Below are positions 13,199-43,854 of a DNA stretch of 64,000 bases, one piece after another. Source of the DNA: Bacteroidota bacterium (GTDB taxonomy: Bacteria; Bacteroidota; Bacteroidia; Bacteroidales; TTA-H9); the NCBI GenBank assembly GCA_003250395.1, contig QKGM01000012.1, forward strand, positions 62,001 through 126,000, given 5' to 3'. The position numbers were made by a program, and so were the translations under genes. The notes below the pieces were generated by a model, which was not told where the DNA came from, made no database searches, and was given only the letters and a program-made list of their open reading frames with translations. Position 1 is the first letter of the stretch; each line of letters opens with the position of its first letter.

Positions 13199-13206
13199 TC
13201 AAAGTT

Positions 13207-13255
13207 ACAGCGGAGCAGGCTACCTTTTGATTCCGGAGGTAGCGCCGCTTTTTTT
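13207..13255 (+). terminator. Rho-independent terminator downstream of the M13 peptidase
   Basis: Imperfect stem agcggagcaggctacc...ggtagcgccgct followed by a T-run. Confidence 0.6.
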
Positions 13256-13270
13256 ATAAAAACCTAACCC

Positions 13271-15358: not shown

Positions 15359-15390
15359 CCAACAGATATTGTTTCAAAATACCACATCGG

Positions 15391-15426
15391 AGGAGCAGAT
15401 TTAAACCTGCTCCTCTTTTTTTTTAT
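15391..15426 (+). terminator. Rho-independent terminator downstream of the S9 peptidase
   Basis: GAGGAGCAG / CTGCTCCTC stem followed by a T-run. Confidence 0.8.
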
Positions 15427-15582
15427 TTTTATCTGTGGTGACAAGATTTAAGGCCTGATTGCAAACAATACATAGCTTTAGATCACGGGAAAGGGTTCAT
15501 TATATTGAACATTAGCCTGTGGAAGTGATTCAACTTTTCAGAAATAAATATATTTTTGTTGAATTACATTAGGAGAAAGCCC

Positions 15583-16713: not shown

Positions 16714-17067
16714 TCCCTTTTAATATGCCTTATCTGTCCTTTAAAGATGATGTTTTTCCACTTTCCGGCTCGCGGGAATCCATCAGGAGAGACAGTAATA
16801 ACGGATTTTGTGTAACCATTAAGCATTATATTACCTGTTAAGTGTATTACGAAGGCAATAAATGCATTGCGGGAATCATCTGTGAATTTATTTTTTATAT
16901 ATTGCAAAACCATTCTGCTGGCCCAGAACCTTTCACTGTAATTTGATTGTGAGTATTTTAATTAAAAACTAAAACGTTTAAGTGTATATCTAACGATACT
17001 AAACTTTCAACCAGAGTCAGATGGGAACCGGACAGTATGGCTATTTTTTACAGAAATCAAGGGTAGT

Positions 17068-20000: not shown

Positions 20001-20388
20001 CGTAAGGAATGTCGGCGTTATCCTGGAAGGTGTACATGCCGACGGAACACCTAATACGACCGTCGTACATTACCTCTATAAATACTTGCCCAATGCCGGT
20101 GGCTGGGGTAAGTTTGTCTCAACTCCAGGTATCGTTGAAAACACCTGGATTAAGATGCGCGAGATATCCATCTCCTACACCCTGCCTCAAAGTCTGATCC
20201 GAAAGCTGAAATTCATCCAGAATCTGAAACTATCAATTACCGGTCGTGACCTATTTTACTTCTACACAACCATTCCCGATAATATCAATCCGGAAGGGAT
20301 CATGGGTTCGGGAAATGCCCAGGGCTTTGAATGGGCCTCATATCCCGGAACAAGATCATTTATGTTTGGTTTAAGTGCAACCTTCTAA
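17068..20388 (+). CDS. SusC/RagA family TonB-linked outer membrane protein
   Basis: Carboxypeptidase-like N-domain, plug domain (VVVTALGVKRQQREIGYSTDKI; LYGSRGANGVILITTKRGK), C-terminal beta barrel. Confidence 0.97.
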   Translation: MIKKLQICILALAISLGAIAQQVTLNGKVTSAEDGNPLPGVTIKVKQTIRGTISDINGMYNISVEKGETLVFSFMGFENQEIVIQDQRVLDVVLVTKGVELGGVVVTALGVKRQQREIGYSTDKISNTELVRAGTSNVLSAITGKSAGVLVSNNDGVDGGSTRVTIRGNNNLNANNQPLIVVDNVPMDNTPGLEDIGRGIDWGNGIADLNAYDIEDYTVLKGGAAAALYGSRGANGVILITTKRGKKQNGVGITYNLDYKIVHPYRYRDVQNVYGSGGPITLLEPTFPLNEDGIPTYLPYGNDHLVINQDGTTSTTSTEFGYYGSSVSWGPKMEGQMIKWWDGEMRPYSAQPDNLKAPFSDGHTITHNIEANAGNEKGTLRISLTRQDNTPIIANSNFDRTTINLGANMKVSEKLKADVTLTYVKYNRLNSPIIGEDANSINKGLLYGWGRSYKGIDRENYQLADGSRNPLEGYRDVFPYVDNYIWWNYYNNNTTLNRDKYTGALALTYDVTPWLNITGRIGRDFSMEQYENRTKPTDYLGLQNGSYSNSVSKNYSDNFDLIVTANREDFLGTGLNVRFTTGANRYDQDYYYIYGHSGTWYYPNMYTFFNYTETVYTTDDQGNTVVSQMGDLAADIATQEKISKQRVNSVYAFLNLGWKNFLFADITGRNDWSSTLPANNNSFFYPSVSLSFIASEAFKIQDKISWLNFLKIKGGVAQTASGTDPYKTKFYYTIGLFGGQQTASFPGEIPPIELKPQRVNAYEGGFNLGLFENRIDIDFVYYYKYSFDQILNLPVPESSGAPNIKINEGVLSNRGIEITINAVPVQSRNSLLRMGLNFALNRNKIISLGDYSDTYLLADIWGLNGPAIVLQEGSDYGTIVGYDYVYDKNGNRIVNDEGTKYEITDTRVPIGNASPDFTTNFTTSFTYKNFTVNTLVDAKIGGDIYCGSYVIGLQTGQSPETLLEREGGGLPYTDPEGNVRNVGVILEGVHADGTPNTTVVHYLYKYLPNAGGWGKFVSTPGIVENTWIKMREISISYTLPQSLIRKLKFIQNLKLSITGRDLFYFYTTIPDNINPEGIMGSGNAQGFEWASYPGTRSFMFGLSATF

Positions 20389-20399
20389 TTGAAATCATC

Positions 20400-22070
20400 A
20401 TGAAAAAGAATAGTGCCATATCTATCATCCCAAGGGAAAAAGCTTCCTTAAGAATCATTCTGAATGTCTTTGTTATTGGATTCTTATTCGTTGCAATGAC
20501 AGCCTGCAACAAAGATTTTGAAGAAATCAACACCAATCCCCACGGTTTTACCACCACGGGCGACGGTGCACTCTTTAACGGAATCATTGAGTCGCTTGTA
20601 CTCTCGGGGAATGAACAGTTTTATATCAATAACGAAATACTCTATAAGCAAGCCCAGTCGGCGGCCCTTACCAAGGAAGCGTGGGGTAACTATACCATCG
20701 GAACCGAGGAGATGTGGAAAGACTATTACAACACCTTGCCCGCTGTCAGAGAACTTGAAAAGCGATTTGCAGCCTATCCGGCCACACCGGGGGTTAACAA
20801 CATGCGGGCGATGCTCAAAATTGTACTGGCATACAAGACTTTTAAAATGACCGACCTGTTCGGCGATATTCCATTCTCTCAGGCTGGTTATGGCTTTCAG
20901 AGCCTTGAAAGGCTCCATCCCGAGTACGATACCCAGCGCAGTATATACATATCGTTGCTCGAAGATCTGAAAACCGCGGCCACCATTATAGATGATACTG
21001 CTGCTTCTGCCGAACCTTTTACCTCGTTCAAACGGTTTGACAGGCTCTTTCTGGGCGATGTCACTGTTTGGCGAAAATTCGCGAATTCCCTCCGCCTGCG
21101 TTATGCCATGCGAATGTCTGATAAGGAACCTGAGCTGAGTGGCGAGATCATTGGTGAGATTATCGGGAACAATGAACCGGTTTTACTGGGGTATGATTTT
21201 ACAAGCCCTGTTCTGGAAGCTGCCTGTATATGGCCCGCTATCTCAGGATTTAAAAACGAAAGCCTCAACTGGTCGTTCCGTGAGCATAACGGACTGCGGA
21301 TGGGATCGAATATCTGGCATCAACTGTCAGAAACCGACAGCCCTGACGGAAGTGGAATTTTCGATCCACGTGCGTACATCTTCTTTGAAACAGATGGCAA
21401 TAATCAATGGACACCGTTTCCTCAGGTACCCGATGCCTCGACCCCTTCGGCGGGTGGCGTACCATACGGGGAACATCGCGACGATGCCGGTAATTTCAGT
21501 ATTAAAGGCGAAAACTGTAACTACTCTATTTTTAACTACTTTCTTATCCGCGATGAAGATTTCATGCCTATCATCCTCATGACCGGCGCCGAAGTTCATT
21601 TCATCAAGGCGGAAGCATATTTCAGGGGAATTGGTGTTGGCATCGACCGCGACATGGCGGATATTGAATACATGAACGGGATTAACGCCTCTGTGGAATG
21701 GTGGCTGAAAACAGCCCATAATTCAAGACTGCCTCTGTCAGGAATTACGTTCGATGAGATGTTACCCATTCCTGAACACCTGAATGCCTCTTCGGTGCTT
21801 AATGTATTTGGATCATGGAATGCCCAGACCGATGAAGAAAAGCTGAAGTTCCTCTATACCCAGCGCTGGCTTGATGCTTTCCGCCAACCCTGGGAGGCTT
21901 ATGCCCTGGCAAGGAGGGTGTCGCTGCTCCCCCGTGAAGGGAATCCCATTGCCCATTTCAGAATGCCTTATCCTCCTTCTGAAAACCAATACAACACTAC
22001 TGCCTGGTCAAACGCCATTGGACGTCAGGGAGGAGACTCCCCCGACGTGAAGATTTGGTGGATTCCGTAA
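20400..22070 (+). CDS. SusD/RagB family nutrient-binding outer-membrane lipoprotein
   Basis: Lipobox MTACNKDF; SusD/RagB-like sequence directly after SusC. ORF track start (20331) overlaps susC; ATG at 20400 gives the signal peptide MKKNSA. Confidence 0.93.
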   Translation: MKKNSAISIIPREKASLRIILNVFVIGFLFVAMTACNKDFEEINTNPHGFTTTGDGALFNGIIESLVLSGNEQFYINNEILYKQAQSAALTKEAWGNYTIGTEEMWKDYYNTLPAVRELEKRFAAYPATPGVNNMRAMLKIVLAYKTFKMTDLFGDIPFSQAGYGFQSLERLHPEYDTQRSIYISLLEDLKTAATIIDDTAASAEPFTSFKRFDRLFLGDVTVWRKFANSLRLRYAMRMSDKEPELSGEIIGEIIGNNEPVLLGYDFTSPVLEAACIWPAISGFKNESLNWSFREHNGLRMGSNIWHQLSETDSPDGSGIFDPRAYIFFETDGNNQWTPFPQVPDASTPSAGGVPYGEHRDDAGNFSIKGENCNYSIFNYFLIRDEDFMPIILMTGAEVHFIKAEAYFRGIGVGIDRDMADIEYMNGINASVEWWLKTAHNSRLPLSGITFDEMLPIPEHLNASSVLNVFGSWNAQTDEEKLKFLYTQRWLDAFRQPWEAYALARRVSLLPREGNPIAHFRMPYPPSENQYNTTAWSNAIGRQGGDSPDVKIWWIP

Positions 22071-22137: not shown

Positions 22138-24648
22138 ATGAACAGAGTTTTTTACAAATTTCAATTTCTGCTGGTGGTGCTTCTTTTCTCTCTGAACCTC
22201 CCTGTCAGTTCACAGAGTAATCAGTATCTCCATTTCGACCGGGTTGATGACTGGGTATCAGTTCCAAACGGTGAATCTTATGTGTTGAATTCAACAGCAG
22301 GTGTATCAATAGCCGGCTGGTTTTTCTCGGATGACCTTTCTTATGGCCAGGGAATGATGGGATTCAGAGGTGGTAGCACAGAATTCTATATGATTCAGAT
22401 CGGCGATGGAAAACTTGAGTGCCGCTACATCAGCAGCACAGGGTTCCACGAATATGTCGGTCCTGCCAACACCATTATACCGCAGGTGTGGCAACATCTC
22501 GCGCTGGTGTATAACGGAACGACTCTCACCCTCTTTGTAAACGGTAACGTTAAAGGTAGTGCTGCCTGCTCGGGAGTACTGACTGACGGAACTGTACCTT
22601 TCGCCATTGGTAAGTCGCCTGTTGGCAGTTATGAGTTCTATTTCGGAGGCCGTGCCGATGAAATATCGGTATGGAACAAAGGACTCACCCAGGCCGAAAT
22701 CCAGGACATGATGCAGAACGAACTCACCGGAACAGAAGCCAATCTGCAGATGTACTATAAGTTTAATCAGGGAGTCCCCGGTGGTAACAATACGGCTATC
22801 ACGAAGCTTATCTCTGAAATAGATTCTCCTGTTCGTGACGGCGATCTTCTCAATTTCGCCATGACGGGCAGTTCTTCAAACTTCCTTGGGACGCTCGACC
22901 CCTCTTTCCAGGCTATCTCTTTCCCTCCAATTCCCAATAAGCTTACTTCGGCCGAGCCTTTCACAATCGAGGCTTCTGCCACATCAGGATTGCCTGTTAG
23001 TTTTGCTATTATCTCGGGACCTGCCACCATCGATGGCAACCTTATTACCCTTACCGGAGACACGGGCAAGGTAATCGTTGAAGCAACACAGCCCGGAGGT
23101 GGACAATATGACCCGGCTACCCCTGTAAGACAAAGCTTCATGGTATTAAGCCCAACGCTTCATGTCCCTGAAATTGATGTTCGTCACCCCCTCGCCGGTG
23201 ATGTGTACATGAGTTCTCTGGCTCCTCTTGAACTGGCTGCTGTCTCTTCGATTACCTATCCGGAATTGTTCTGGGTATCGAATGTCAGCTTTGCTATAAA
23301 CGGTCAGAATATTGCTGCCCGTACCTACTGGAACAACCACTATACTGGCTGGTGGACACCGCCTGCCTATGGCAGCTACGTATTGGAAGTTAAAAGTACC
23401 AACAACTATGGTGCCCATTCAACCAAAACCGTAACGATCAACATTGTTCCTTCAGCTGAAGATATGTATGTGCCTGCTGTTCAGGATGTACTGATCAATA
23501 CCAACATCAACCACACCATTGTTACTGCCGAATTACCCTCCTTCCTGGCTGCTTTTGATACCATTGAGGCTACACTCACCGTTTCATGCCCACCGGGTGG
23601 TTGCGGTGAATGGGATCGTGTTGCATGGATCGAAGCCCGTGGCCATGACGGTGAATGGTATGAGATTATCCGCTACATCACCCCCTATGGTAAAGCATGC
23701 TCACACACCATCAACCTGACCGATTATGCCATGGTGCTGCGCGGAAAGGTTGATTTCAGGGTAAATTGTGAAACCCTCGACAACGGCTATATATACGATC
23801 TCAATTTAACCTACAAGGCTGGTACCCCGCCATACCTCTACAGCTTCATGCAGAAAATATGGTACGATACCTATCAGTTTGGTGACTATGCCAATCTGCA
23901 GCCTGTCGAACAGGTCGACTTCGAATTCCCGGCCAATGCGATTGCTGCAAAACTTAAGCTCGTCTCTACCGGTCATGGCTGGGGCGACCTCAATACCAGC
24001 AATGCTGCCGAGTTTTACAATGCAACCCATTCTATCTGGGTAAATGGAGCCAAAACCTTCAATCAGGTTAACTGGCAGGATTGTAATCCTAATCCCGATG
24101 GTTGTCAGCCTCAGAATGGTACCTGGTATTACGACCGTGCCGGCTGGTGTCCCGGTGCTATTGCCCGCTGGTTCGATTTCGATATGTCGCAGTTCGTTCC
24201 TAATGGAAACATTAACCTGCAGTACAAATTCTATGAGAACTATGTCGACCTGTGTCACCCCAACCATCCCAATTGTGTAACAGGGGTAACTTGCAGCGAT
24301 TGCAACGATGGCTTTAACCCGCATCTGATCGTAGCCTCCCACATCGTTACTTATGCCAATGAACCCATTATCGTGGTTGGTGAAGAGAAACCTGACATTA
24401 CCAGAGTTTCGGCATTTAACGCTAATCCTAACCCAACACAGGGGATGCTCGAAATATCGCTTACCGGAAACGTTAAGGTAGATAAATCGACTGTCTATCT
24501 CTACAATTTGTCTGGAAAACTTGTACACCAGTTCGATTGGGACGGAACCACCCGTACGGTAAATCTTTCTTCCCTTCCCAAAGGACTCTATTTTATGCAA
24601 CTGCAGGGCAATGGTATTTCTGATGCCCGTAAAATTGTGATCCAGTAA
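22138..24648 (+). CDS. LamG + peptide-N-glycosidase F-like domain protein with T9SS type A sorting domain
   Basis: LamG fold (VSIAGWFFSDDLSYGQGMMGF), PNGase F-like signatures (LTVSCPPGGCGEWDRVAWIEA; LVSTGHGWGDLNTSNAAEF; WYYDRAGWCPGA), C-terminal NPNPTQGMLEISLTG...RKIVIQ. Confidence 0.85.
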   Translation: MNRVFYKFQFLLVVLLFSLNLPVSSQSNQYLHFDRVDDWVSVPNGESYVLNSTAGVSIAGWFFSDDLSYGQGMMGFRGGSTEFYMIQIGDGKLECRYISSTGFHEYVGPANTIIPQVWQHLALVYNGTTLTLFVNGNVKGSAACSGVLTDGTVPFAIGKSPVGSYEFYFGGRADEISVWNKGLTQAEIQDMMQNELTGTEANLQMYYKFNQGVPGGNNTAITKLISEIDSPVRDGDLLNFAMTGSSSNFLGTLDPSFQAISFPPIPNKLTSAEPFTIEASATSGLPVSFAIISGPATIDGNLITLTGDTGKVIVEATQPGGGQYDPATPVRQSFMVLSPTLHVPEIDVRHPLAGDVYMSSLAPLELAAVSSITYPELFWVSNVSFAINGQNIAARTYWNNHYTGWWTPPAYGSYVLEVKSTNNYGAHSTKTVTINIVPSAEDMYVPAVQDVLINTNINHTIVTAELPSFLAAFDTIEATLTVSCPPGGCGEWDRVAWIEARGHDGEWYEIIRYITPYGKACSHTINLTDYAMVLRGKVDFRVNCETLDNGYIYDLNLTYKAGTPPYLYSFMQKIWYDTYQFGDYANLQPVEQVDFEFPANAIAAKLKLVSTGHGWGDLNTSNAAEFYNATHSIWVNGAKTFNQVNWQDCNPNPDGCQPQNGTWYYDRAGWCPGAIARWFDFDMSQFVPNGNINLQYKFYENYVDLCHPNHPNCVTGVTCSDCNDGFNPHLIVASHIVTYANEPIIVVGEEKPDITRVSAFNANPNPTQGMLEISLTGNVKVDKSTVYLYNLSGKLVHQFDWDGTTRTVNLSSLPKGLYFMQLQGNGISDARKIVIQ

Positions 24649-24693
24649 ACCTTTATCGATTAATCAAATACCGGAAGTCTCTACAACCGGATC

Positions 24694-24727
24694 AATCCCC
24701 CCGTCTTTCGGGGGGATTTTTTTGTTG
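24694..24727 (+). terminator. Rho-independent terminator after the LamG/PNGase-like gene
   Basis: AATCCCCCC / GGGGGGATT stem followed by a T-run. Confidence 0.9.
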
Positions 24728-24954
24728 AATACCGGCGGGAGTAAAGCCCCCTGGCATAGGAAAGGAATTTTCTCCCTATTGCTTGATAAAGGGTGTAACG
24801 GGTGCTGTATCTTCTTAAACCGGTATTCTGCCTCCTGTAGGCTTCTGCCGGCTTTTACCGCTAACGGGTTGTTTTCATTGCCAGCAAATCCTCCAAAAAA
24901 GGGGGCACGAGAATTGCCCCCGGTGAGGCAGCATTAGTCAGGTTACAACGCTTT

Positions 24955-25302
24955 TTACCGGTTTTTGCGGGCTTCGACAAAGCTTCTGATAAAGCAGATC
25001 ATCGACATCAATGAAGTAAGCATCATTGCAGCGACCCTGATTATCGATCCGGTATGTCCCCGGTCGATGCTCCCGAACAGGGGCTTAAACAAACCTGCCA
25101 GCACAAGCAACGTGAGAACAACTGCCACATGTGCCTGAATTTTGTTTTCCTTACTAACCCCTTTGTGAAGGGCGGCCAGAATCAGACCGGCAGCCACAGG
25201 AATAAGTGCAGTAGCTGATGGTGTGTCGGAAGCGAGATATCCCCAGAGGCCTAATACTACAAGGACAACGGCGTTGATTAAATTGGATGTATGTTTTTGC
25301 AT
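24955..25302 (-). CDS. Small hypothetical integral membrane protein
   Basis: 115 aa, four hydrophobic segments. Confidence 0.65.
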   Translation of the reverse strand: MQKHTSNLINAVVLVVLGLWGYLASDTPSATALIPVAAGLILAALHKGVSKENKIQAHVAVVLTLLVLAGLFKPLFGSIDRGHTGSIIRVAAMMLTSLMSMICFIRSFVEARKNR

Positions 25303-28459: not shown

Positions 28460-28670
28460 CAACCTAAGGCAATGCCCTGTATCAACAGGCATGGAAAACA
28501 CCAGAACCGGTGTTACGTATCCCTGGGTTGCCCCGCTGCAGGAGTAGCCCGATCAGGCTCATGCCGGTGTAATGAAATAATGGTGAAATCTACGGGAAGA
28601 GGACAACGGTCAACAGTGGTCTGGCCAGGAGCCTGAAAAGGGAGAAAGTAAGCCATAGCTAAAACTGTGC
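28460..28670 (+). ncRNA. Candidate structured RNA or relic (identity unknown)
   Basis: Nested helices: outer GGCAA (28468-28472)/TTGCC (28528-28532) enclosing TGCCcTGT/ACAGGCA (28473-28491) and AACACC/GGTGTT (28497-28514); more short stems downstream (AGCC/GGCT; CTGGCCAG). Confidence 0.35.
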
Positions 28671-29061
28671 CATAAATATTTTATATTCATTTTTCCTACA
28701 TATATATTATGTGCCATATATATAATAAACATAGGCTTTTCATAAGAAAAACCCGAATTTGCCCCGAATTTGGTATGAATTTGGGGTGAATCAGTAAGGA
28801 AATGGCGCTATAAATTACATGTAATCAGCAGGTTAAAAATGGTTGTTATGTGACAAATTTCACAGAAAAAATATTGAAAAAAGTTGAAAACAGCCAGGTC
28901 GGGAGGATGATTTTAGTGTAAATGCGTACGCATATTTTGGAAAACGGTTCTATTATTTGGAAAGATTGGAATTGGGGGCATTTTTAAAAAAAGTTGATTG
29001 GCCCCAATTCTGCACAGGCTGGTAAAGAGTTAATTCCAAACAATTTCTGACTACAGCATAA

Positions 29062-29090
29062 TTGTGATGGTGAATAAAAGTTTACTTTTG
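29062..29090 (+). promoter_or_regulatory. Putative Bacteroidota promoter upstream of the hypothetical ORF
   Basis: TTG (29062-29064), about 18-bp gap, TACTTTTG (29083-29090), matching TAnnTTTG. Confidence 0.45.
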
Positions 29091-29119
29091 TGACAGCAAC
29101 CAGATTATAATTCGTTATT

Positions 29120-29482
29120 ATGAGAATGTGTCACCCTATGACTCCTCTTTCTCCTGATCTCACGATAAATAGTGTTGATATGCCATGCAATGAATCTGCC
29201 AGTGTAGTTCCTTCACTGTCCGGAGTGGGAAGAGTGAACGAAAATGGTACGGGCGAAGGGGTGAAGTATTTTTCTTTTACTTGTGAAAGGACAGAACTGG
29301 ATAACAGTCTGGCGTACATTCGGGATTTGCTACAGTGCAATCAATGCAGTGAGGCAACATTGAATTCTTTAAAAGAAGTATTGATTGCGGAAAGAATCCT
29401 GTCTAAAGTTGATGATATACGTCCAATTTGGGAGTATAACAGTAACTTTGTGAATATATATACTAGTTACCAACAAGCTTAA
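29120..29482 (+). CDS. Hypothetical protein
   Basis: 120 aa ORF preceded by a promoter-like sequence; no recognisable family. Confidence 0.5.
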   Translation: MRMCHPMTPLSPDLTINSVDMPCNESASVVPSLSGVGRVNENGTGEGVKYFSFTCERTELDNSLAYIRDLLQCNQCSEATLNSLKEVLIAERILSKVDDIRPIWEYNSNFVNIYTSYQQA

Positions 29483-29555
29483 AAAAAGAAATAACAGTGC
29501 AAACTTGATGGAATTTTTGTTTTGCCAACCCGCAATAAAATAATAGCCACCGCGC

Positions 29556-29618
29556 ATTGCACACATTGTCAAGCCACACGAGCCGATGCTCAGACCAAAG
29601 CTTGCCAAAGAGTGCAAT
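29556..29618. repeat. Dyad-symmetry intergenic element A (attC-like boundary upstream of the defense operon)
   Basis: attgcacacattgtcaag (29556-29573) / cttgccaaagagtgcaat (29601-29618), 15/18 complementary; 27-nt spacer containing CCACACG. Confidence 0.6.
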
Positions 29619-29657
29619 TTATTCCGACACACAACCGAGATAACGAAATAACCTTTT

Positions 29658-29680
29658 TATATTTGGACAAATTGTTCAAA
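29658..29680 (+). promoter_or_regulatory. Promoter -7 box overlapped by a palindromic operator for the XRE/defense operon
   Basis: TATATTTG (29658-29665) overlapping TTTGGACAA-A-TTGTTCAAA (29662-29680; 9-bp arms, one mismatch), 15 bp before the XRE ATG. Confidence 0.55.
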
Positions 29681-29694
29681 ACTGATTATTCAAA

Positions 29695-29973
29695 ATGAAT
29701 ACATTTGGAGAATATATACGAGAGCTTAGAGAAGCAAAAGGATTGCCTTTAAGAAAAGTTTCAGCAGAATTGGATGTTGATACTTCTATCCTTAGTAAAA
29801 TTGAAAGGAATGAGAGGAATGCAACAGTTGAAATGATACCTGTTTTGGCTGACGTACTTGATACGCCTGAAAAAGAATTCCAAATAAGATTCTTAAAGTT
29901 TTGCATTATCAGAGATTACGGCAATTTGACTCATTTAAAAGATGGGTTACAAGAGATCATTAAAGAATTATGA
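29695..29973 (+). CDS. XRE-family HTH transcriptional regulator (controller-protein-like)
   Basis: 92 aa; FGEYIRELREAKGLPLRKVSAELDVDTSILSKIERNERNATVEMI is a classic HTH_3. Stop overlaps the next start (ATGA). Confidence 0.92.
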   Translation: MNTFGEYIRELREAKGLPLRKVSAELDVDTSILSKIERNERNATVEMIPVLADVLDTPEKEFQIRFLKFCIIRDYGNLTHLKDGLQEIIKEL

Positions 29974-32900
29974 GTACTAAGTTTTTTACAAATACAGACG
30001 ACAACACTGTTTTTCAAAAATTCAAAGGGATTTTTGAGAACATGAAAGACATTTATGCTTTTCATGCAGTTGTCGGATATTTTCGTTCATCAGGTTATTT
30101 TGCGCTACAGGATTATCTAAAAGAAATTAAGGATATAAAAATTTTGGTCGGCATTAATGTCGATGAAATGTTTGCTGAAGCCCAACGAAAAGGATTGCTT
30201 TATTTTGGCGATGAAGAAAAAACCAAAGATGAGTTTCTGAGGTGGTTTGTACAAGATTTAAAAGAAGCCAAATATTCAGCAAAAGTTGAAGAAGGAATTT
30301 TTGATTTCATACAAGATTTAATTGATAGCAGAATTGAAGTTCGGGCTCATAACTCAAAAGCTATTCATGCTAAATTTTATTTATTTCTTCCCGAAAATCA
30401 TTCAGAACATTCAGACGGTTGGGTAATTATGGGGTCTTCAAATCTGACAGAAGCAGGTTTGGGAATTAAAAAATCACCAAACTATGAACTAAATATTGCG
30501 CTTAAAGACTACGATGATGTTGAATTCACAAAGACTGAATTTATAAAGCTGTGGGAGAAGTCAACTCCAATTTTACCAGCAGACATACAAGAATACAAAA
30601 AGAAAACTCATATTGGACAGACTTTTACGCCATTTGAAATATATCTGAAACTACTGATTGAATATTTTGGGAAAAATATTGATTACGACCCTGATACCGT
30701 TGGAGACTTACCAAAATCATTCAAAAAACTTAGTTATCAGATTGATGCTGTAAACCAGGGATTTCAGATGCTAATGGAGCATAATGGATTCTTCCTTTCC
30801 GATGTAGTAGGTTTAGGTAAAACTGTTGTTGGTTCTATGATTGCCAAAAGGTTTATTGTGGCAAATGGTTCTTTAAACACGAAAATATTAATTGTTTATC
30901 CACCTGCCCTAGAACGAAACTGGAAAAGTACATTTAGAACATTTGGAATTGATAAACATACAAAGTTTATAACTAATGGTCGTCTTGAAAGAATTCTGAA
31001 AGAAGAGGATTTGAATTATTGGGCTAAGGAAGATTACGATTTAGTAATTGTTGATGAAGCTCATAAATACAGAAACCATACTTCGCAAAGTTTTGAAAAT
31101 TTGCAGAGAATCTGCAAAGCACCTCGAAATGGTGAAGGTTTGGTTCCAGGTGCGAACAAGAAAATCATTCTCATTTCCGCAACTCCATTAAATAACAGAC
31201 CTCAAGATTTATATTACCAGTTGTTGTTATTTCAGGATGCTCGAAGAAGCACGCTTCCTGTAACGAATCTGCAATCTTTCTTTGGGCCAATCATTCGTGA
31301 GTATCGTGAAATAATGAAAGAGGATGAACCTCAGATTGAAAGAATCAGAGAATTGTATGACACAATCCGAGAGAAAGTTATTTCCCAAATTACAGTTCGT
31401 AGAACAAGGCGAGATTTAAAAGGCTATCCCCAATACATTGATGATTTAAAAGACCAAGGAATTGTATTTCCTGAAATTGCACCGTTAAAAGCTGTTCAAT
31501 ACGATTTGGATTCCAAGCTGAGCAAGCTATTCTATAAAACAATATTTTACCTTACAGACACAGACAAAGTCAACTATTTCAGATATCAGGCAATTGCTTA
31601 TTTGAACGAAGATTTACGAGACACCTATTACGACCAAGCGGTTTTGGTTTCTAAATCTTTGGCAGGAATCATGAAAACCTTAATGGTTAAACGACTTGAA
31701 AGTAGTTTCCATTCTTTCAAAATCACTTTAAACAATTTGCTGATTTCAACAGAAAGAATGATTCAAATGTTTGCGGATGATAAAGTTCTAATTGCCCCTG
31801 ACTTGAATATTAATAAACTGATTGAAAAAGGGTTCTCGATGGAAGAAATTGAGGACTTAATAATGGAATTGAATACTGAAAACCCAAAGAATAATATTTT
31901 CACTGCAAAAGATTTCGAAGAGGAATTTTTAAAAGGATTGACACACGACCGAGACTTGTTAAAAGAATTATTCGAAGAATGGCAAAAAGTTCAGTCCGAC
32001 CCTAAGTTGGACAAATTGTTTGACGCTTTAGAAAATGAATTATTCGACAAAGCAAAAAACCCCACAGGACAGTTAATAATTTTTACGGAAAGCAACGATA
32101 CTGCTGAATATTTAGCTGAAAAGCTTGATAACTATAAAAATAAAGGCGTTTTAAAAATTTCATCGGAAAACAGGAAAAAGATATTTGAAGTTATTCAGCA
32201 AAACTTTGATGCAAATTACGATGGAAAACGCAAGGATGATTATCATATCCTAATTACAACCGATGTTTTAGCCGAAGGTGTCAACTTGCACAGGGCAAAT
32301 GTTTTGGTGAATTACGATACTCCTTGGAATGCAACCAGATTAATGCAGAGAACTGGTCGTATTAATCGAATAGGTAGTATAGCTGGCGTAATTTACAATT
32401 ACAACTTTTACCCTTCGCAACACGGTGATGAGGAAATTCATTTATATAAAAATGCTTTAATAAAACTGCAAGGTTTTCATACCGCATTTGGTGAAGATGC
32501 TCAGGTATTTACACATGAAGAACTTGTTGAGCAGTTTGAACTTTTTAAAGAAGGTATGCCTGATGATGAAGACAAACGTCTTCAATATTTGAGGTTTATC
32601 AGAGAATTTAAAGACCTAAATCCTAGAGAATTTAAACGGATTAAAAATTTCCCATTGAAAGCACGAACTGCAAGAAAAAATAGTTTGCTTGAAAATGAAA
32701 ATATCAAAGATTCAACTTTGGTATTCCTTAAATCGCCATACAAAATGGAGTTTTACCATATTGGAAAAGACAAGAAAGTTTCATCACTTACTTTTTTAGA
32801 AGCTGCTGAAATATTTATAGCTGAACCTAAAGAATTGGGGCATGAAATTCCGTCTGTTCACTATGAACATGTACAAAAAGCTTTAGATGAGTTCGATAAT

Positions 32901-33269
32901 GACTTTTTAGGCTCATCGACAGAGGTTGTAACAACAACCGATAAAGCTGATGCAATTTCGGCACAGGCAAAAAAATTCCTTAGGGATTTTAAAGGAATTA
33001 CAAGAAATAATGAGGTTAAAAAAGCATGTGAGGCAATGATGGATTTGATTGATAAAGGTACTTACACACCACTACCAAACGAAATTCGCAAACTGAAAAA
33101 GCAACTCGATAAAAAAACAGTCACTTACGGACAAGCAGATAACTTAATTGTTGGAATTGCGAAAAAATTTGACGCAATAGATGACGAGCAAGAGTCAACA
33201 ACTTACAGAACGGAAATTGGAGCAAATATAACCCCAGAGATAGTTATTACTGAAACATTTACATCATAA
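29970..33269 (+). CDS. PLD-nuclease-fused SNF2/SF2 helicase (Hma-type helicase subunit)
   Basis: N-terminal PLD-like HAKFYLF...GSSNLTEAGL; DVVGLGKTVVGSMIA, VIVDEAHKYRNH, ISATPLNNRPQDLYY, TDVLAEGVNLHRANVLVNYDTPWNATRLMQRTGRINRIG. Confidence 0.95.
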   Translation: MSTKFFTNTDDNTVFQKFKGIFENMKDIYAFHAVVGYFRSSGYFALQDYLKEIKDIKILVGINVDEMFAEAQRKGLLYFGDEEKTKDEFLRWFVQDLKEAKYSAKVEEGIFDFIQDLIDSRIEVRAHNSKAIHAKFYLFLPENHSEHSDGWVIMGSSNLTEAGLGIKKSPNYELNIALKDYDDVEFTKTEFIKLWEKSTPILPADIQEYKKKTHIGQTFTPFEIYLKLLIEYFGKNIDYDPDTVGDLPKSFKKLSYQIDAVNQGFQMLMEHNGFFLSDVVGLGKTVVGSMIAKRFIVANGSLNTKILIVYPPALERNWKSTFRTFGIDKHTKFITNGRLERILKEEDLNYWAKEDYDLVIVDEAHKYRNHTSQSFENLQRICKAPRNGEGLVPGANKKIILISATPLNNRPQDLYYQLLLFQDARRSTLPVTNLQSFFGPIIREYREIMKEDEPQIERIRELYDTIREKVISQITVRRTRRDLKGYPQYIDDLKDQGIVFPEIAPLKAVQYDLDSKLSKLFYKTIFYLTDTDKVNYFRYQAIAYLNEDLRDTYYDQAVLVSKSLAGIMKTLMVKRLESSFHSFKITLNNLLISTERMIQMFADDKVLIAPDLNINKLIEKGFSMEEIEDLIMELNTENPKNNIFTAKDFEEEFLKGLTHDRDLLKELFEEWQKVQSDPKLDKLFDALENELFDKAKNPTGQLIIFTESNDTAEYLAEKLDNYKNKGVLKISSENRKKIFEVIQQNFDANYDGKRKDDYHILITTDVLAEGVNLHRANVLVNYDTPWNATRLMQRTGRINRIGSIAGVIYNYNFYPSQHGDEEIHLYKNALIKLQGFHTAFGEDAQVFTHEELVEQFELFKEGMPDDEDKRLQYLRFIREFKDLNPREFKRIKNFPLKARTARKNSLLENENIKDSTLVFLKSPYKMEFYHIGKDKKVSSLTFLEAAEIFIAEPKELGHEIPSVHYEHVQKALDEFDNDFLGSSTEVVTTTDKADAISAQAKKFLRDFKGITRNNEVKKACEAMMDLIDKGTYTPLPNEIRKLKKQLDKKTVTYGQADNLIVGIAKKFDAIDDEQESTTYRTEIGANITPEIVITETFTS

Positions 33270-36200
33270 TGGAAAAGACAAAACTCAATAAAATATTTTT
33301 AAAAGCTTTTGATTTAAAAGAGTGGCTTGTTGTTTTAAAGGATGTTTTTGGGGCAAAACAATTGCTAACCCAGCCAAAACATATTTTACTGAACAACAAC
33401 GATAGGGCAAAATCAGCAACCGAGATTGGTAGTTTCGCCACTTCAGACGACCGTATTATTGGTTTGTATCACGTAGTAGTAAATGATGATGTTTGGTTGG
33501 AAAGAAACAAAGTTGGGTTACGTGAACTTTTACGAAATATTTATCGCTACGATGTTGATGGTGCTCTTGTTGTTTTTGAACAAGGCGATAAATGGCGTTT
33601 GTCATTCATATCTGAGATTAAGGTGTTAAATGATGAAGGCGAAGTTGTAGAACAAGCCACAGAACCCAAACGCTATACTTATTTGTTGGGGGTTGATGAA
33701 AAAGTTAAAACACCATCGGAACGCTTATCGAAACTTGCTGGTAAAACTTTAGCACTTAACGACATCTTAAATGCCTTTAGTGTTGAAGCATTAAACGAAG
33801 AATTTTACAAAATCATTTCGGAATATTTTTATCAATTGGTCGGTGGTACTGTTGGTTCAGGTAAATCTGCCAAATCATACGAACCAAAACTGAAATTGCC
33901 TATACCTATTGAAAACCATCAAACATATCAGGAATTTGTTGTTCGTTTAATTGGTCGGACTATTTTCTGTTGGTTTTTGAAAATGAAAAAATCTGATGAT
34001 GGGATTTCGCTTGTACCTGAAGGTTTATTGTCTTCCGAAGCTGTAAAGAATAATAAGGGATACTATCATACTGTTTTGGAACGCCTGTTTTTTCAAACAT
34101 TAAATACCAAAATGAATGAGAGAGTGGATGGACTGCCCGTTGGTTGTGAAAAAATTCCTTTTTTGAATGGTGGTTTGTTTGAACCTAATTCGGATGATTA
34201 TTACAAACCAAACCGTATAACAGGAATATCTGAAAACCTGAATACTCTCAAAATTGAAGATAACTGGTTTTTCGAACTTTTCACTGAACTGGAAAAATAC
34301 AACTTCACCATTGATGAAAACTCAGTAACCGATGTTGAAGTAAGTGTTGACCCTGAAATGCTTGGGCGTATTTTTGAAAATCTTTTGGCTGAAATTGACC
34401 CCGATAGTGGTGAAACAGCCCGTAAAGCAACAGGTAGTTTTTATACGCCCCGCGAAATTGTTGATTATATGGCAACGGAAAGCCTTGTGCAGTACATTCA
34501 TAATAAAACCTCAATTTCTCCTGATAAGATTCGCCCTGTGTTTAAGATGACAGAGGAACCAGACCCAACTTTCACAAAAACTGAATTGGAGGGTATTTTG
34601 GATGCACTTGACAAAGCAAAAATACTTGACCCTGCTTGTGGTTCGGGGGCTTTCCCAATGGGTGTTTTGCAAAAGATTGTTCAAGCATTACAGAAATTGG
34701 ATGCCAATGCCGATTGGTGGAAGAAACGACAAGTTGAACGTATTTCAAATCCGATTGTACGCAAGGCGTTAAAAGAAAAACTGGACTCATCGGGTGTAGA
34801 GTACGCTCGTAAAATTGGTGTTATACAAAACTCATTATATGGTGTGGATATTCAGCCTATTGCAGCTGAAATATCTAAACTTCGTTGTTTCTTGACTTTA
34901 ATTGTGGACGAAAACATTGACGAAACCAAACCCAACAGAGGCATTGAACCATTACCCAACCTTGAGTTTAAATTTGTAACTGCCGATACATTGCAAAAAC
35001 TACCAGAGGAAAAGAACCTTGGTGGTTTATTTAACAGCAATGACGATTTAGCTCAACTGGCTTCAATCAGACAAGATTATCTACAAAGCTACGGCGAACA
35101 AAAAACTGAACTTAAGACACAATTTAAAGCTACACAAGATAAAATTGCAAAACAGCAACTGGGTTTTGGTACAGCTTTAGACGTAAATAGCCGTGCTTGG
35201 TTGATTAGTACTTGGAATCCTTTTTCGCATGATAAAGCCGATTGGTTTGAGCCTCAATGGATGTTTGGAATTGAGAACTTTGATGTTGTAATTGGAAATC
35301 CCCCATATGGAACATCAGTAAAAGATGAATACAGAATTAAAGTCACCAATGCTTTGGGTAAAGTGCCTGATTTTGAGATATATTATTATTTTATAAATAA
35401 AGCATATCAGTTACTATCTAAAAAAGGTATTATTTCATACATAATTCCTAATACGTTTTTATTTAACACATATGCAAAACATTATAGAATTAAATTGCTA
35501 GAAAATTGGAATTTATTAGAAGTGCTCGATTGTACAAATTTCCCAATTTTCAATAATGCAGTAGTAAGAAACACAATAAATACATGGCAGAAAGGGAATT
35601 CAGAAATTATTGGATATCGAAATACAAAAAGAAAGAATTGTTTCAAGGAGTTAATACAAGCTAAAAAAGAAATTATTTCAATAAAAGATATTAAGAAATT
35701 TAATGAAAACTGGGGCTTAGCATTTTCACTTGAAAAATCAAAATTTACTGCAATTAATAAAATTAGGAACTCATCTGTTATACTAGAGAAATATTTTCCA
35801 GAAATATCACAAGGTTTAATAGCTTACGATAAATACAGAGGGCAATCAGCAGATATTATAAAATCAAGAGCATATCATTATACAGAGAAAATTAAAGATG
35901 ATTTAAAACCGTGGTTAAAGGGTGGTGATGTATCTCGCTACATGGTAAAATGGAATGAGCTTCATTATATTGATTACTGTGATGATATTGCAAATCCAAG
36001 AAATCCAAAATATTTTGTAGGTGAAAGAATTTTAGTTAGAGAAATTACAAACCCATCTATTTATGCAGGGTACACAGAAGAGGAGCTTTATAATGACCCA
36101 GGTATTATAATTATTAAAGGGAATGATACATATTCAATTAAATCAGTTTTAGCGATTTTAAATTCTAAATTGGCTAGCTTCTTCCACTTTAATTCTTCTC

Positions 36201-36634
36201 CCAAAGCAACTAAAGGTGCATTTCCGAAAATTTTAGTTCAAGATGTAAAAAACTTTCCATTAGCACCAAAATTCAATCAAAGCTCATTGGAAATATTAGT
36301 TGACTTCATATTGTTTTTGAAATCTACATCAAATAACCAAATAAATCCACTTGTTTCTAACTTTTATTTTATTGAACTTTTAGATAATGTGATAGATGCA
36401 ATGGTAATGGAGCTATATTTTGAAGAAGATTTTAAAAAGACCGGAATTGAATTTATAAAATATGCAGAACGTGATTTTGAGAGCATTGAGGGAAAACCAG
36501 AGCCTGAAAAAATTGAAATAATAAATAAGGCCTACCAAAAGTTAAATGAGAAAGATAACGAGATACGGAATAACCTTAAGCTTATGGATATAAAACTGGC
36601 TGATATTGTATTACCTATAAAATCGGCTAAGTAA
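33269..36634 (+). CDS. Eco57I/N6-adenine-type DNA methyltransferase (Hma-type methylase subunit)
   Basis: TGSFYTPREIVDYMATESL, motif I ILDPACGSGAFPMGVLQ, motif IV FDVVIGNPPYG; 1121 aa; start overlaps the upstream stop (TAATG). Confidence 0.95.
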   Translation: MEKTKLNKIFLKAFDLKEWLVVLKDVFGAKQLLTQPKHILLNNNDRAKSATEIGSFATSDDRIIGLYHVVVNDDVWLERNKVGLRELLRNIYRYDVDGALVVFEQGDKWRLSFISEIKVLNDEGEVVEQATEPKRYTYLLGVDEKVKTPSERLSKLAGKTLALNDILNAFSVEALNEEFYKIISEYFYQLVGGTVGSGKSAKSYEPKLKLPIPIENHQTYQEFVVRLIGRTIFCWFLKMKKSDDGISLVPEGLLSSEAVKNNKGYYHTVLERLFFQTLNTKMNERVDGLPVGCEKIPFLNGGLFEPNSDDYYKPNRITGISENLNTLKIEDNWFFELFTELEKYNFTIDENSVTDVEVSVDPEMLGRIFENLLAEIDPDSGETARKATGSFYTPREIVDYMATESLVQYIHNKTSISPDKIRPVFKMTEEPDPTFTKTELEGILDALDKAKILDPACGSGAFPMGVLQKIVQALQKLDANADWWKKRQVERISNPIVRKALKEKLDSSGVEYARKIGVIQNSLYGVDIQPIAAEISKLRCFLTLIVDENIDETKPNRGIEPLPNLEFKFVTADTLQKLPEEKNLGGLFNSNDDLAQLASIRQDYLQSYGEQKTELKTQFKATQDKIAKQQLGFGTALDVNSRAWLISTWNPFSHDKADWFEPQWMFGIENFDVVIGNPPYGTSVKDEYRIKVTNALGKVPDFEIYYYFINKAYQLLSKKGIISYIIPNTFLFNTYAKHYRIKLLENWNLLEVLDCTNFPIFNNAVVRNTINTWQKGNSEIIGYRNTKRKNCFKELIQAKKEIISIKDIKKFNENWGLAFSLEKSKFTAINKIRNSSVILEKYFPEISQGLIAYDKYRGQSADIIKSRAYHYTEKIKDDLKPWLKGGDVSRYMVKWNELHYIDYCDDIANPRNPKYFVGERILVREITNPSIYAGYTEEELYNDPGIIIIKGNDTYSIKSVLAILNSKLASFFHFNSSPKATKGAFPKILVQDVKNFPLAPKFNQSSLEILVDFILFLKSTSNNQINPLVSNFYFIELLDNVIDAMVMELYFEEDFKKTGIEFIKYAERDFESIEGKPEPEKIEIINKAYQKLNEKDNEIRNNLKLMDIKLADIVLPIKSAK

Positions 36635-38613
36635 TGCACAAGATAAAGCAAATCACTCTTCAAAATTTCAAGTTCTTTTATGGGAATGTTCCCATAAATT
36701 TCGACCGTAAGCATGTGCTTATTTATGGTGAAAATGGTAGCGGTAAAAGTTCAATACATTGGGCTATATATACTTTTTTGCAAAGTGTATTTAAACAAGA
36801 TGTAAAACAGGTTCAAAAATATTTTCAGCCAATAACAAGGCATGAAGAAAGTATAAAAAACCGTTATGCATCAGACACAGAAGATGCTTTTATTGAAATT
36901 ACTTTTGTGGATGAGAGCGAAGATATCAGAACTAAAAAGATTTCAAATACAACCGTCAACACTCGTCCTCAAACTGACCGATTTGTTGAGCAGATAACTC
37001 TTTCAAGCGATTTAATTGATTACAAATCAATATTTAATATCTACAACTATACCAATAAAGACAGGGTTAAACTTTTCGGTTACATTGAAAAAAATCTGAT
37101 GCCTTTCATAAAATTGCAGAATCCAATTTCAGACAATGCAGGAAATCCAATTTCGCAAAACCTAGAAGTTTGTTGGAATTATTTGAAAAAAGGCCTTGCC
37201 CCTTATCCTGGCATCTATGACCAAACCTACCATAATTTTCAAGCATCAATTGCTCAATTTAATACCGATTTTAAATTCTATTTGGAATCAATTGCTGTTC
37301 GTGCAAATGAATATCTGAAAGAGAAATTCAAAGAAAAATTTGAAATATCATTCGAATATCAGGATTGCACATACAACGATTTCAATAGTTACAATAAAGG
37401 TCGAAACAAAAGAACTATTGCACCTGAAATATATTTAACAGCAAGGCTATTTGACACAAATCTAACTGATGACACAAATAAAGTTCAACGTGTTCATTCT
37501 TTCTTAAATGAAGCCAGACTTTCTTCGATTGCTTTAGCCATTCGGATGGCAATTTTGAAAGAGAAATATGTAAAGTCGTCTCCAAAAATACTTGTTTTGG
37601 ACGATTTGCTATTAAGCCTTGATATGGGCAATAGAGAGGCTGTTTTAAACATCGTTTTAGATGAATATTTAGAAGATTATCAGTTAATTGTTTTGACTCA
37701 TGACCGTAGCTTTTTCCAAACAGTATTGAGTTATATAAAAACAGATTATGCTAAAAAACTAAAAAGCACAGGAGAAACGAACACCGATAAGTTATCAAAT
37801 GCTTTTAAAGAACACTGGAAAGTTCTTGAAATGTATGAATCCACTTTACCTGACGGTAAAAACATTCCTGCAATTGTAGAACATCAATCACATATTCAAA
37901 AAGCACTACATTATTTTACTGACAAAGATTGCATTGACTATAATGCTTGTGGTAATAATTTACGAGCAGCCTTGGAGGAGTTTTTCAGGGAATTCATACC
38001 CAAAGAATTTCTGAGGGATAATAGTGGTAATCTAATAGAAAAGAATTCGTTAATGCTAAATCCTTTGACTGAAAAATGTATGGATTATTTTAATCATATT
38101 GGATTTAATACTCAGTATCTTGATAAAATAAACAGATACAGGGAACGTACATTAAATCAAACTTCGCATTACAATCCACTGTCAAATTACTTTAAAAAAG
38201 AACTTCAAGAAACATTCGAAATACTAAACGAATTAAAAAAGTATCGGACAGATTCTGTAGTAAAAACAGATGAATTATTACAATTCTCAGTTGAAAGTCC
38301 GAGTGGTAAACAGTTCTTGTACACTTTTAAACCTCTTGATGATATTAGACTTTATAAAGAACCTTTAAATGGTAGTACATCATTCTATTGTAATAAGGAC
38401 AAAAGAATCTATGCATTGGTAGGATTTACAGAAAACGATAATTCACAATTGATAAGTTACTCAACAAAATCAATGACTTTAAGTGATTTCTATAATGAAA
38501 CAATTGATGGTTTAGAAAAGAAAATTAAAGAAACATGCACTAAAGCACCAGATATTTATGATGTTATAAAAACAGTGGACGGGAAAACCTTGAATGAATT
38601 AAAAACTTATTAG
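36634..38613 (+). CDS. AAA/SMC-like (ABC-type) ATPase (Hma-type ATPase subunit)
   Basis: Walker A IYGENGSGKSSIHWAIY, signature-like ARLSSIALAIRMAIL, Walker B ILVLDDLLLSLDMGNR, H-loop LTHDRSFF; start overlaps the upstream stop (TAATG). Confidence 0.93.
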   Translation: MHKIKQITLQNFKFFYGNVPINFDRKHVLIYGENGSGKSSIHWAIYTFLQSVFKQDVKQVQKYFQPITRHEESIKNRYASDTEDAFIEITFVDESEDIRTKKISNTTVNTRPQTDRFVEQITLSSDLIDYKSIFNIYNYTNKDRVKLFGYIEKNLMPFIKLQNPISDNAGNPISQNLEVCWNYLKKGLAPYPGIYDQTYHNFQASIAQFNTDFKFYLESIAVRANEYLKEKFKEKFEISFEYQDCTYNDFNSYNKGRNKRTIAPEIYLTARLFDTNLTDDTNKVQRVHSFLNEARLSSIALAIRMAILKEKYVKSSPKILVLDDLLLSLDMGNREAVLNIVLDEYLEDYQLIVLTHDRSFFQTVLSYIKTDYAKKLKSTGETNTDKLSNAFKEHWKVLEMYESTLPDGKNIPAIVEHQSHIQKALHYFTDKDCIDYNACGNNLRAALEEFFREFIPKEFLRDNSGNLIEKNSLMLNPLTEKCMDYFNHIGFNTQYLDKINRYRERTLNQTSHYNPLSNYFKKELQETFEILNELKKYRTDSVVKTDELLQFSVESPSGKQFLYTFKPLDDIRLYKEPLNGSTSFYCNKDKRIYALVGFTENDNSQLISYSTKSMTLSDFYNETIDGLEKKIKETCTKAPDIYDVIKTVDGKTLNELKTY

Positions 38614-38628
38614 CCTACGCTTCGCAGT

Positions 38629-38690
38629 CATACACATTGCCAAGTCGCTCAAAAAAGCCGCCACACGCCCAAAACTTGTCAAAGTGTATG
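38629..38690. repeat. Dyad-symmetry intergenic element B (attC-like boundary downstream of the defense operon)
   Basis: catacacattgccaag (38629-38644) / cttgtcaaagtgtatg (38675-38690), 14/16 complementary; spacer contains CCACACG as in element A. Confidence 0.6.
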
Positions 38691-38787
38691 CCTGCCCAAA
38701 AGCACGGACTACCGACTCTGAAAACAAAAATTAGTGCATAATTGAAATGTAGGTGATTGAAAATGAATAAAGGCCAGTTGGTAACAC

Positions 38788-38897
38788 GGTATATAAAACA
38801 TTTGGCGGATAGTGCTAATTTTAAGAGCAGTACATTTAACAAACATTGTAACAGTTTGATAGGAAATCGCTTTGAAATGCCAAACGTTTCATATACC
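38788..38897. repeat. Large imperfect inverted repeat B2 between the ATPase and methyltransferase genes
   Basis: GGTATATAAAACATTTGGC (38788-38806) / GCCAAACGTTTCATATACC (38879-38897), 17/19 complementary, 72-nt spacer. Confidence 0.65.
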
Positions 38898-38953
38898 CAT
38901 CCGTTGATGGCAAGCATAAGAGTGAGACACATAGTAATTTAACGAGAAATAAT

Positions 38954-39589
38954 ATGACAGAATTTTGGGAGACAAGTTTTAGAGATAAACAAGAAATGTG
39001 GGGATGGGAACCTGCTGACTCTGCTATTGAAACGCTAGAATTATTTAATAAATACGAATTAAATAAAATCCTGATTCCTGGATTCGGTTATGGTAGAAAT
39101 GCCAGGATTTTTACTGACAATGGATTTAAGGTAACTGGTATTGAGATTTCTGAAACGGCAATTGACATAGCACAAAAACACTTTGGAGATAGGATAAAAG
39201 TATACCACGGTTCAGTTGGTTCAATGCCATTTGATCAGGAATTATATGATGGTATTTTCAGTTATGCTTTAATCCATTTATTAAGCGCACCAGAACGGGC
39301 AAAACTAATTGAAGATTGTTATAATCAGCTTAAACCTAATGGATACATGGTTTTTGTATCCATTTCAAAAAAGGATTTTAGATATGGACAAGGAAAAGAA
39401 GTAATCAAAGACACATTTGAAACTTGGCCGGGCGTTACTTTATTCTTTTATGACTTAGACTCAATTAAAGCAGATTTTGGCAATTATGGTTTGATAGATG
39501 CCGAAGTAATTAATGAACCAAAAATTGTTATAAGAGATAAACCCTCACAACGATTTTGGTATATAATATGCAAGAAACAAATTAATTAA
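38954..39589 (+). CDS. Class I SAM-dependent methyltransferase
   Basis: KILIPGFGYGRNARIFTDNGFKVTGIEISETAIDIA (motif I) and FDQELYDGIFSYALIHLL. Confidence 0.88.
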   Translation: MTEFWETSFRDKQEMWGWEPADSAIETLELFNKYELNKILIPGFGYGRNARIFTDNGFKVTGIEISETAIDIAQKHFGDRIKVYHGSVGSMPFDQELYDGIFSYALIHLLSAPERAKLIEDCYNQLKPNGYMVFVSISKKDFRYGQGKEVIKDTFETWPGVTLFFYDLDSIKADFGNYGLIDAEVINEPKIVIRDKPSQRFWYIICKKQIN

Positions 39590-39736
39590 AATGCCTGGTG
39601 TTAATAAATACTGTGTGTCAATTGCTATTTCCGTACTGACAACACACCATATAGCACTCAACAGCAGCAGTACAGCTTGACAGGAAAACCGCTCGAAGTC
39701 GGCAACTGCATATAATTCTGAATGTTAACTACAATT

Positions 39737-40924: not shown

Positions 40925-41012
40925 ATAACAGCAGTAAACGCAGTACCTGTTACAGGGCGGGGTTTTGCGGTTTAAAAGGCTGTGTGTAAGATTATCTATT
41001 TAATTTTACGAC

Positions 41013-41256
41013 ATGAAAATGATCAAATGAATTATGGCTCGTTATATAAAGCAGAGATAGTCCGTGAGGCGAACAAGGGGGTTAGAACCGTTTCAGAGAT
41101 TTTATAAGAACGTGAACTTCTTCCTGTTCCAGTAATAAAATGGAAAAGGAGTTCCTCAGGCATATTTCCAATGTTTCTGATGGAATATGGAAGTACGAAT
41201 AAGAACGTGGTATCATGCATTATAGTTAAAGAAAAGAATTGACCGCAAGAACTATT
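41013..41256 (+). pseudogene. Relic copy E1 of a transposase-orfA-like N-terminus
   Basis: 41013-41073 is 49/61 identical (ungapped) to 43700-43760; translated MNYGSLYKAEIVREANKGVRTVSEI* resembles the N-terminus of IS3-type OrfA proteins, then a stop. Confidence 0.4.
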
Positions 41257-43656: not shown

Positions 43657-43699
43657 AGGTGATTTACAAAACCGGACATCAAGGTAAAGTATAAGACCC

Positions 43700-43854
43700 A
43701 TGAAAATGATTAAACGAAATTCGGTTCTTTATTTTAAGCAGAGATAGTCCTTGAGGTAAATTCAAAGGATTATTTAAAACGTTGGCAGTCGTTTGAATTA
43801 TCGCGGATTGTATTGTGTAACATTAAGGAGCGTTTTCGAATACCGATTATATAA
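43700..43854 (+). pseudogene. Relic copy E2 of the transposase-orfA-like N-terminus
   Basis: 43700-43760 aligns ungapped with 41013-41073; conserved peptide (T/M)(K/N)(F/Y)GSL(F/Y)-AEIV-E-N with a lost start and an internal stop. Confidence 0.4.

Follow-up and report, generated by a model that had tools for sequence, protein, structure and literature searches.

Does the defence operon of a Bacteroidota bacterium of the TTA-H9 lineage move as a unit and, if so, where does that unit end? We analysed a window, meaning here the whole stretch of 64,000 nucleotides (contig QKGM01000012.1 of assembly GCA_003250395.1, positions 62,001 to 126,000, forward strand), in which an operon of ~9 kb lies between two matching hairpins, A and B. 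According to the original prediction, the operon may move as a cassette, with A and B as its folded recombination sites. The operon did prove to be cassette-like, in surroundings that resemble an integron, but the mobile unit extends beyond A and B on both sides. The edges are instead found at the GTT of an attI-like site and at the GTT of a larger dyad located directly after B and previously overlooked, which we call R1; A and B, members of a separate hairpin family (R2), were rejected as recombination sites because the breakpoints fall at these neighbouring elements. Comparison with related sequences indicates that the window very probably contains the remnant of an integron-like platform, with the operon as its first cassette and R1 as an attC-like site that would be recombined at GTT by a tyrosine recombinase with a HARP-like domain (HARP-type recombinase). 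The features concerned are the following:

28652–29254, + strand: platform DNA, matching repeats upstream of a recombinase or its remnant in the same genome and in genome G001.
29359–29468, + strand: attI-like site, with an inverted repeat ATACGTCC/GGGAGTAT (29417–29437), the core ATATATACTAGTT and GTT at 29466–29468.
29467–38903, + strand: cassette 1 (9,437 bp), with ends placed by homology and G^TT cleavage assumed from integrons.
29494–29647, + strand: element A, an R2 hairpin of the 5′ type with a conserved left flank (dyad, R2 model and locus comparison).
38608–38720, + strand: element B, an R2 hairpin of the 3′ type (dyad and R2 model).
38782–38908, + strand: R1, the attC-like hairpin of cassette 1, beginning TAACACGG and ending CCATCCGTT, with GTT at 38903–38905.
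38904–39728, + strand: probable second cassette, containing a methyltransferase gene (38954–39589; Pfam Methyltransf_11) followed by a possible decayed R1.

R1 was detected by BLASTN with the region past the operon. The order B then R1 recurs in G000:C41 and G001:C45, and in relatives R1 also occurs without B, placed after a stop codon and before the start codon that follows. Of 149 genomes of the order, 87 contained matches to a covariance model of R1; these were often arranged in tandem on one strand and frequently lay at contig ends, as expected because assemblers break at repeats. The arrays run head to tail on a single strand with one open reading frame (ORF) per R1, as in L105 (9 R1 within 11 kb, with ORFs between them) and L159 (15 R1 within 15 kb). 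A same-strand ORF ended −25 to 150 nt upstream in 66 of 85 R1 copies, compared with 21% of random positions, and the median distance from ORF end to R1 was 13 nt.

As is the case for integron sites, R1 is an imperfect hairpin that is conserved in structure more than in sequence. In an alignment that was fitted to the model, changes on both sides were seen in 22 of 22 stem pairs and 88% of stem cells were paired, versus 29–39% in slid versions. Conserved A·C mismatches on the coding strand correspond to G·T pairs on the opposite strand, which folds better in most copies; this is only suggestive of a folded bottom-strand substrate. Of 85 copies, 83 had AAC near the 5′ end and 79 had GTT near the 3′ end. 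Canonical boxes were rare (RYYYAAC, 6/85; GTTRRRY, 10/85), in agreement with their reported lack at A and B. In the case of the second window cassette, the candidate decayed R1 (core TTGACAGGAAAACCGCTCGAA at ~39679) was judged alike by eye and was unsupported by the R1 model (6.9 bits). Rfam gave no match in the window, the R1 and R2 copies of six array loci matched no Rfam family either, and no tRNA that could serve as a target was found in the window.

The ends of shared sequence locate the breakpoints. G031 and G023 have a cassette in common whose two copies agree through CAACCGTT and are unrelated beyond it. Another, common to the window's genome and G001, is preceded by a different R1 in each and alike from CCGTTATAGGC on; its copies are 94.6% identical, compared with 74% for syntenic DNA of the two species, which belong to one genus, and show that it was transferred recently. 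In G002, three copies of one unit are alike from CGTTACAAGTAA after three different R1. On the platform side, an integrase platform from Alkalitalea and a related one are alike through AAAAAGACGTT, ~330 bp past the integrase, beyond which their cassettes differ. Similarly, two Chryseobacterium plasmids share a backbone and integrase (86–90% identical) through ACATATAAACAAGTT, 107 bp past the integrase, before diverging; one plasmid has five R1 copies, each on the same strand as the integrase. Because both pairs of related platforms diverge there, insertion appears to occur at the GTT of an attI beside the integrase. Homologous platforms bear different cassettes at the same point. Further attI-like sites were located by alignment; a regular-expression motif matched 13 of 33, versus 5.1 in shuffles, for a pattern picked by eye on the same data.

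Two loci contained additional repeated or inserted elements. In G002:C55 (L114), a unit of 570–580 bp is repeated at 8338–8902, 12841–13417 and 16250–16827, running from an R1 GTT to the attI-like TATAAATGAGTT, and may represent a cassette with its own insertion site. In the Chryseobacterium plasmid NZ_CP041688.1 (L287), a group II intron (18701–20443; Rfam RF02001, ltrA reverse transcriptase) lies within the array, ~110 bp before an R1 copy. Certain group II introns target integron attC sites.

The window itself fits this arrangement. Its platform DNA (28652–29254) is 78% identical to the upstream locus L166 in G000:C8 and also matches L167, L284 and L120. The block 28652–29468 is matched by L166, L282 and, twice, L284, in each case up to 29468–29469. 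The core ATATATACTAGTT recurs with minor differences in L160, L162, L166 and L167, where it directly follows the integrase or what is left of it. The order of the window, namely attI, R2, operon, R2 and R1, is found after an intact integrase in L153 and again, without integrase, in L282 and L284. Because the attI-like end at 29468 and R1 flank it, we consider the operon to be the first cassette of an integrase-less platform. The AT-rich part of the block (28652–28966) has many repeats in G000 and G001, some away from arrays and some near recombinase genes. A listed ORF of 120 residues (29120–29482), which spans the platform block and the attI-like site, had no family match and is probably no gene.

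The dyads of the original prediction were present at the expected positions and exceed chance. The arms of A (29556–29574/29600–29618) are 19 nt long and 84% complementary, and those of B (38624–38645/38674–38695), slightly longer than claimed, are 22 nt long and 86% complementary. Both contain the cores CACATTG[T/C]CAAG and CTTG[C/T]CAAAG and an internal CCACACG, and B starts, as described, 16 bp past the last stop codon, which ends at 38613. Fold z-scores on the top strand were −2.5 for A and −4.8 for B against dinucleotide shuffles. A and B are copies of one family, R2, and a search with a profile of it, as had been proposed, detected further copies in other genomes. The examined loci contained 42 copies (40 distinct). 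In the distinct copies 92% of stem cells were paired, versus 68% when shuffled and at most 52.5% in slid versions, with double changes in 15 of 18 pairs, although these pairing figures lean towards structure since the alignment was fitted to the model. The outer arms differ between 5′ and 3′ copies. R2 pairs bracket multi-gene operons within arrays in many Bacteroidota genomes; in G031:C3, for instance, successive units of 5–19 kb are each bounded by R2, R2 and R1. No breakpoint at R2 was seen in the compared loci. From these comparisons, A and B appear to belong to a cassette-internal hairpin class that brackets operon-sized, mostly defence cassettes, and our best guess for its role is the transcriptional insulation of operons that have their own promoter and regulator.

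A tyrosine recombinase, which the original prediction had proposed to look for elsewhere in the genome, was found for the system. Many arrays are closely preceded, in the same orientation, by a match to the integron-integrase profile, and a HARP-type family accompanies the R1 arrays. These recombinases match TIGR02249 only at about positions 1–180 and 237–315, with scores of 201–221 bits (cut-off 265), and lack the IntI-specific additional domain. Their catalytic residues are invariant, and the nearest solved structure to the whole protein is the integron integrase 2a3v. In a tree of 60 recombinases, every bootstrap tree kept the HARP-type sequences together and separate from IntI1 and the remaining IntI. 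At the N-terminus they carry an additional domain of ~70 residues, which is single in versions of 370–400 residues and apparently repeated in longer ones. Its best match to HARP (Pfam PF07443) reached 21.2 bits (E=2e-4; cut-off 25 bits), and a match of any kind was obtained for 2 of 22 isolated domains. Its sequence gave nothing significant against solved structures. For the predicted domain (predicted local distance difference test score 90.6), the two best Protein Data Bank matches, of low significance, were the SMARCAL1 HARP structure 4o66 (Foldseek E=0.07, probability 0.75, template-modelling score 0.44).

The association between recombinase and R1 was assessed in 80 loci gathered by recombinase similarity alone, in which R1 was searched for only afterwards. 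All 29 R1 matches were on the recombinase strand, 28 of them downstream, and all fell in Bacteroidota loci of the HARP-type group, with none in ~40 other loci. The R1-bearing loci included those of the isolates Flavobacterium aciduliphilum, Winogradskyella ursingii, Algibacter onchidii, Zunongwangia mangrovi, Seonamhaeicola aphaedonensis and Alkalitalea saponilacus. In the window's genus, the Xer-like matches of G001 and G002 were on contigs without R1 matches. At the genome level, R1 was present in 50 of 60 genomes with a strong integrase match versus 37 of 89 without one (Fisher p=2.3e-7). Loci L150–L162 serve as illustrations and not as a test, because they were chosen for having both R1 and an integrase.

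Several observations weigh against this reading. No integrase sequence was found in the window by tblastn, so the recombinase is absent at this very locus, and neither an empty site nor a before-and-after pair for the window's cassette was found in a related strain. The comparison loci without R1 came mainly from other phyla, and phylum is for this reason a confounder in the 80-locus test. The 37 R1-positive genomes in which no recombinase was found reflect, perhaps, draft assemblies or decay; the genomes are mostly draft metagenome assemblies. Finally, the recombinase neighbouring the L114 array (16967–17971) is of another type and faces away from it.

Three other explanations have to be considered. 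If A, B and R1 were transcription terminators or 3′ untranslated region hairpins outside recombination, with the genes moved otherwise, one would expect them just past stop codons on the coding strand, where all three do lie, and for R2 this may be partly true given that no breakpoint was seen there. Yet this explanation does not predict an abrupt sequence change at GTT with a different R1 on the far side, the tie of R1 to one recombinase type, or the position of A upstream of its operon. Moreover, neither hairpin matches Rfam, and the mismatches on the RNA-like strand become G·T on the other, better-folding strand. For R1 it is already strongly weakened by the GTT breakpoints, and overall we regard it as very unlikely. 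A and B could also delimit a mobile element of their own, either a nested cassette or a transposon, that carries the defence operon and moves by itself inside cassettes, which would account for R2 pairs flanking entire operons in equal orientation at both ends and for the different outer arms of 5′ and 3′ copies. This, too, seems improbable, because identity was in no observed case seen to end at R2 and the observed edges are at the GTT of R1 or attI; no transposase was noticed in the scanned R2-flanked operons.

The third alternative is that these are ordinary integrons whose attC sites (R1) were overlooked by available tools and whose recombinase is a divergent IntI. As in integrons and CALINs (attC clusters without integrase), cassettes stand in tandem in one orientation with an imperfect hairpin at each 3′ end, AAC and GTT lie near the 5′ and 3′ ends of the site with breakpoints at GTT, the insertion site is just past the tyrosine recombinase gene, and plasmid and chromosomal versions exist. 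The nearest solved relative is an IntI, and two genomes of the order carry genuine IntI-type integrases over the cut-off (L163, G015:C50; L164, G090:C95). In the family, no IntI integrase exceeded the cut-off. The DNA fetched around these two loci contained no R1, and the array recombinases lack profile positions ~180–237, score below the IntI cut-off, carry the additional N-terminal domain and are separated from IntI in every bootstrap tree. Unlike integrons, the recombinase is usually oriented as the array, the R boxes are non-canonical, and cassettes may be whole operons of 2–19 kb bracketed by R2. We therefore find this alternative hard to credit. With respect to Xer-type recombinases (XerA/XerC/XerD), the fold and catalytic residues are equal and NCBIfam NF040815 (XerA/integron integrase) is matched at 215.8 of 220 bits, just under its cut-off, whereas the extra N-terminal domain and the adjoining R1 arrays set the HARP-type apart. 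The resemblance to the SMARCAL1 HARP domain consists of the weak sequence match and the best structure matches, below the Pfam cut-off and in fusion to a recombinase rather than a helicase.

Returning to the integron-like platform, we propose that the recombinase, composed of a HARP-like domain, a SAM-like domain and a catalytic core, would recognise R1, probably as folded single-stranded DNA, and would join it to attI or to another R1 at GTT; cassettes would be inserted, excised and shuffled in one orientation. Catalysis, strand choice, the single-stranded substrate and the exact G^TT cleavage are what we infer from sequence, and that the system functions like an integron is strongly supported by the comparisons. 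By definition it departs from an integron in two tested features, the IntI domain, which is lacking, and the R boxes, which are not canonical.

The cargo of the window's cassette 1 is encoded by four genes:

29695–29973, + strand: HTH_3 regulator, 92 residues (Pfam PF01381, E=3.7e-11).
29970–33269, + strand: PLD-like nuclease with SNF2-type helicase, 1099 residues (Pfam PLDc_2, SNF2-rel_dom and Helicase_C; PADLOC C3a139 HKD+Snf2, E=2e-43).
33269–36634, + strand: Eco57I-type methyltransferase, type IIG-like, 1121 residues (Pfam Eco57I, E=5.8e-30, and TaqI_C; PADLOC REase_MTase_IIG, E=5e-80).
36634–38613, + strand: SMC/RecF-type ATPase, 659 residues (Pfam SMC_N and AAA_23; PADLOC mad3, E=9e-16).

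PADLOC matches (threshold 1e-8 or better) were obtained in 14 of 18 R2-flanked operons scanned, for two of which only the 3′ R2 copy was found; L108, L109, L153 and L223 had none. The systems comprised Lamassu with TmtA, Gabija, Hachiman, Kiwa-like and helicase systems, together with type I, II, IIG and III restriction-modification. Among single-gene cassettes without R2, 1 of 10 matched PADLOC, a contrast that is only indicative because bigger proteins match more readily. In the Chryseobacterium oryzae plasmid NZ_CP094530.1 (L288), a type III restriction-modification operon with an R2 hairpin at its end lies between two copies (13948–15890 and 23809–25020) of an IS91-family transposase, which is accompanied by a partner tyrosine recombinase. 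Past the array, in a gene-poor stretch of the window, a 58-nt direct repeat (41012–41069 and 43699–43756; 83% identical) belongs to neither R1 nor R2.

In Bacteroidetes, integrons were reported to be near-absent, IntegronFinder 2.0 having found one complete integron, in Salinibacter ruber (PMC9024848). A literature search, with preprints and most subscription papers outside its scope, found no published account of such a system in Bacteroidota. On balance, we think it likely that Bacteroidota have an integron class of their own apart from IntI, in which a recombinase with one or more HARP-like domains reads folded hairpins, and which ships complete anti-phage operons of 2–19 kb as single cassettes marked by a dedicated hairpin pair. 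The integron-like system occurs in over half of the genomes sampled from one order, as well as in isolates of Flavobacteriia and on plasmids, and offers a concrete vehicle by which defence operons may move between species. Reading the DNA between R2 hairpins may be a simple route to new defence systems, and the system makes it possible to ask whether attC-type recombination evolved repeatedly or can dispense with the IntI-specific domain.
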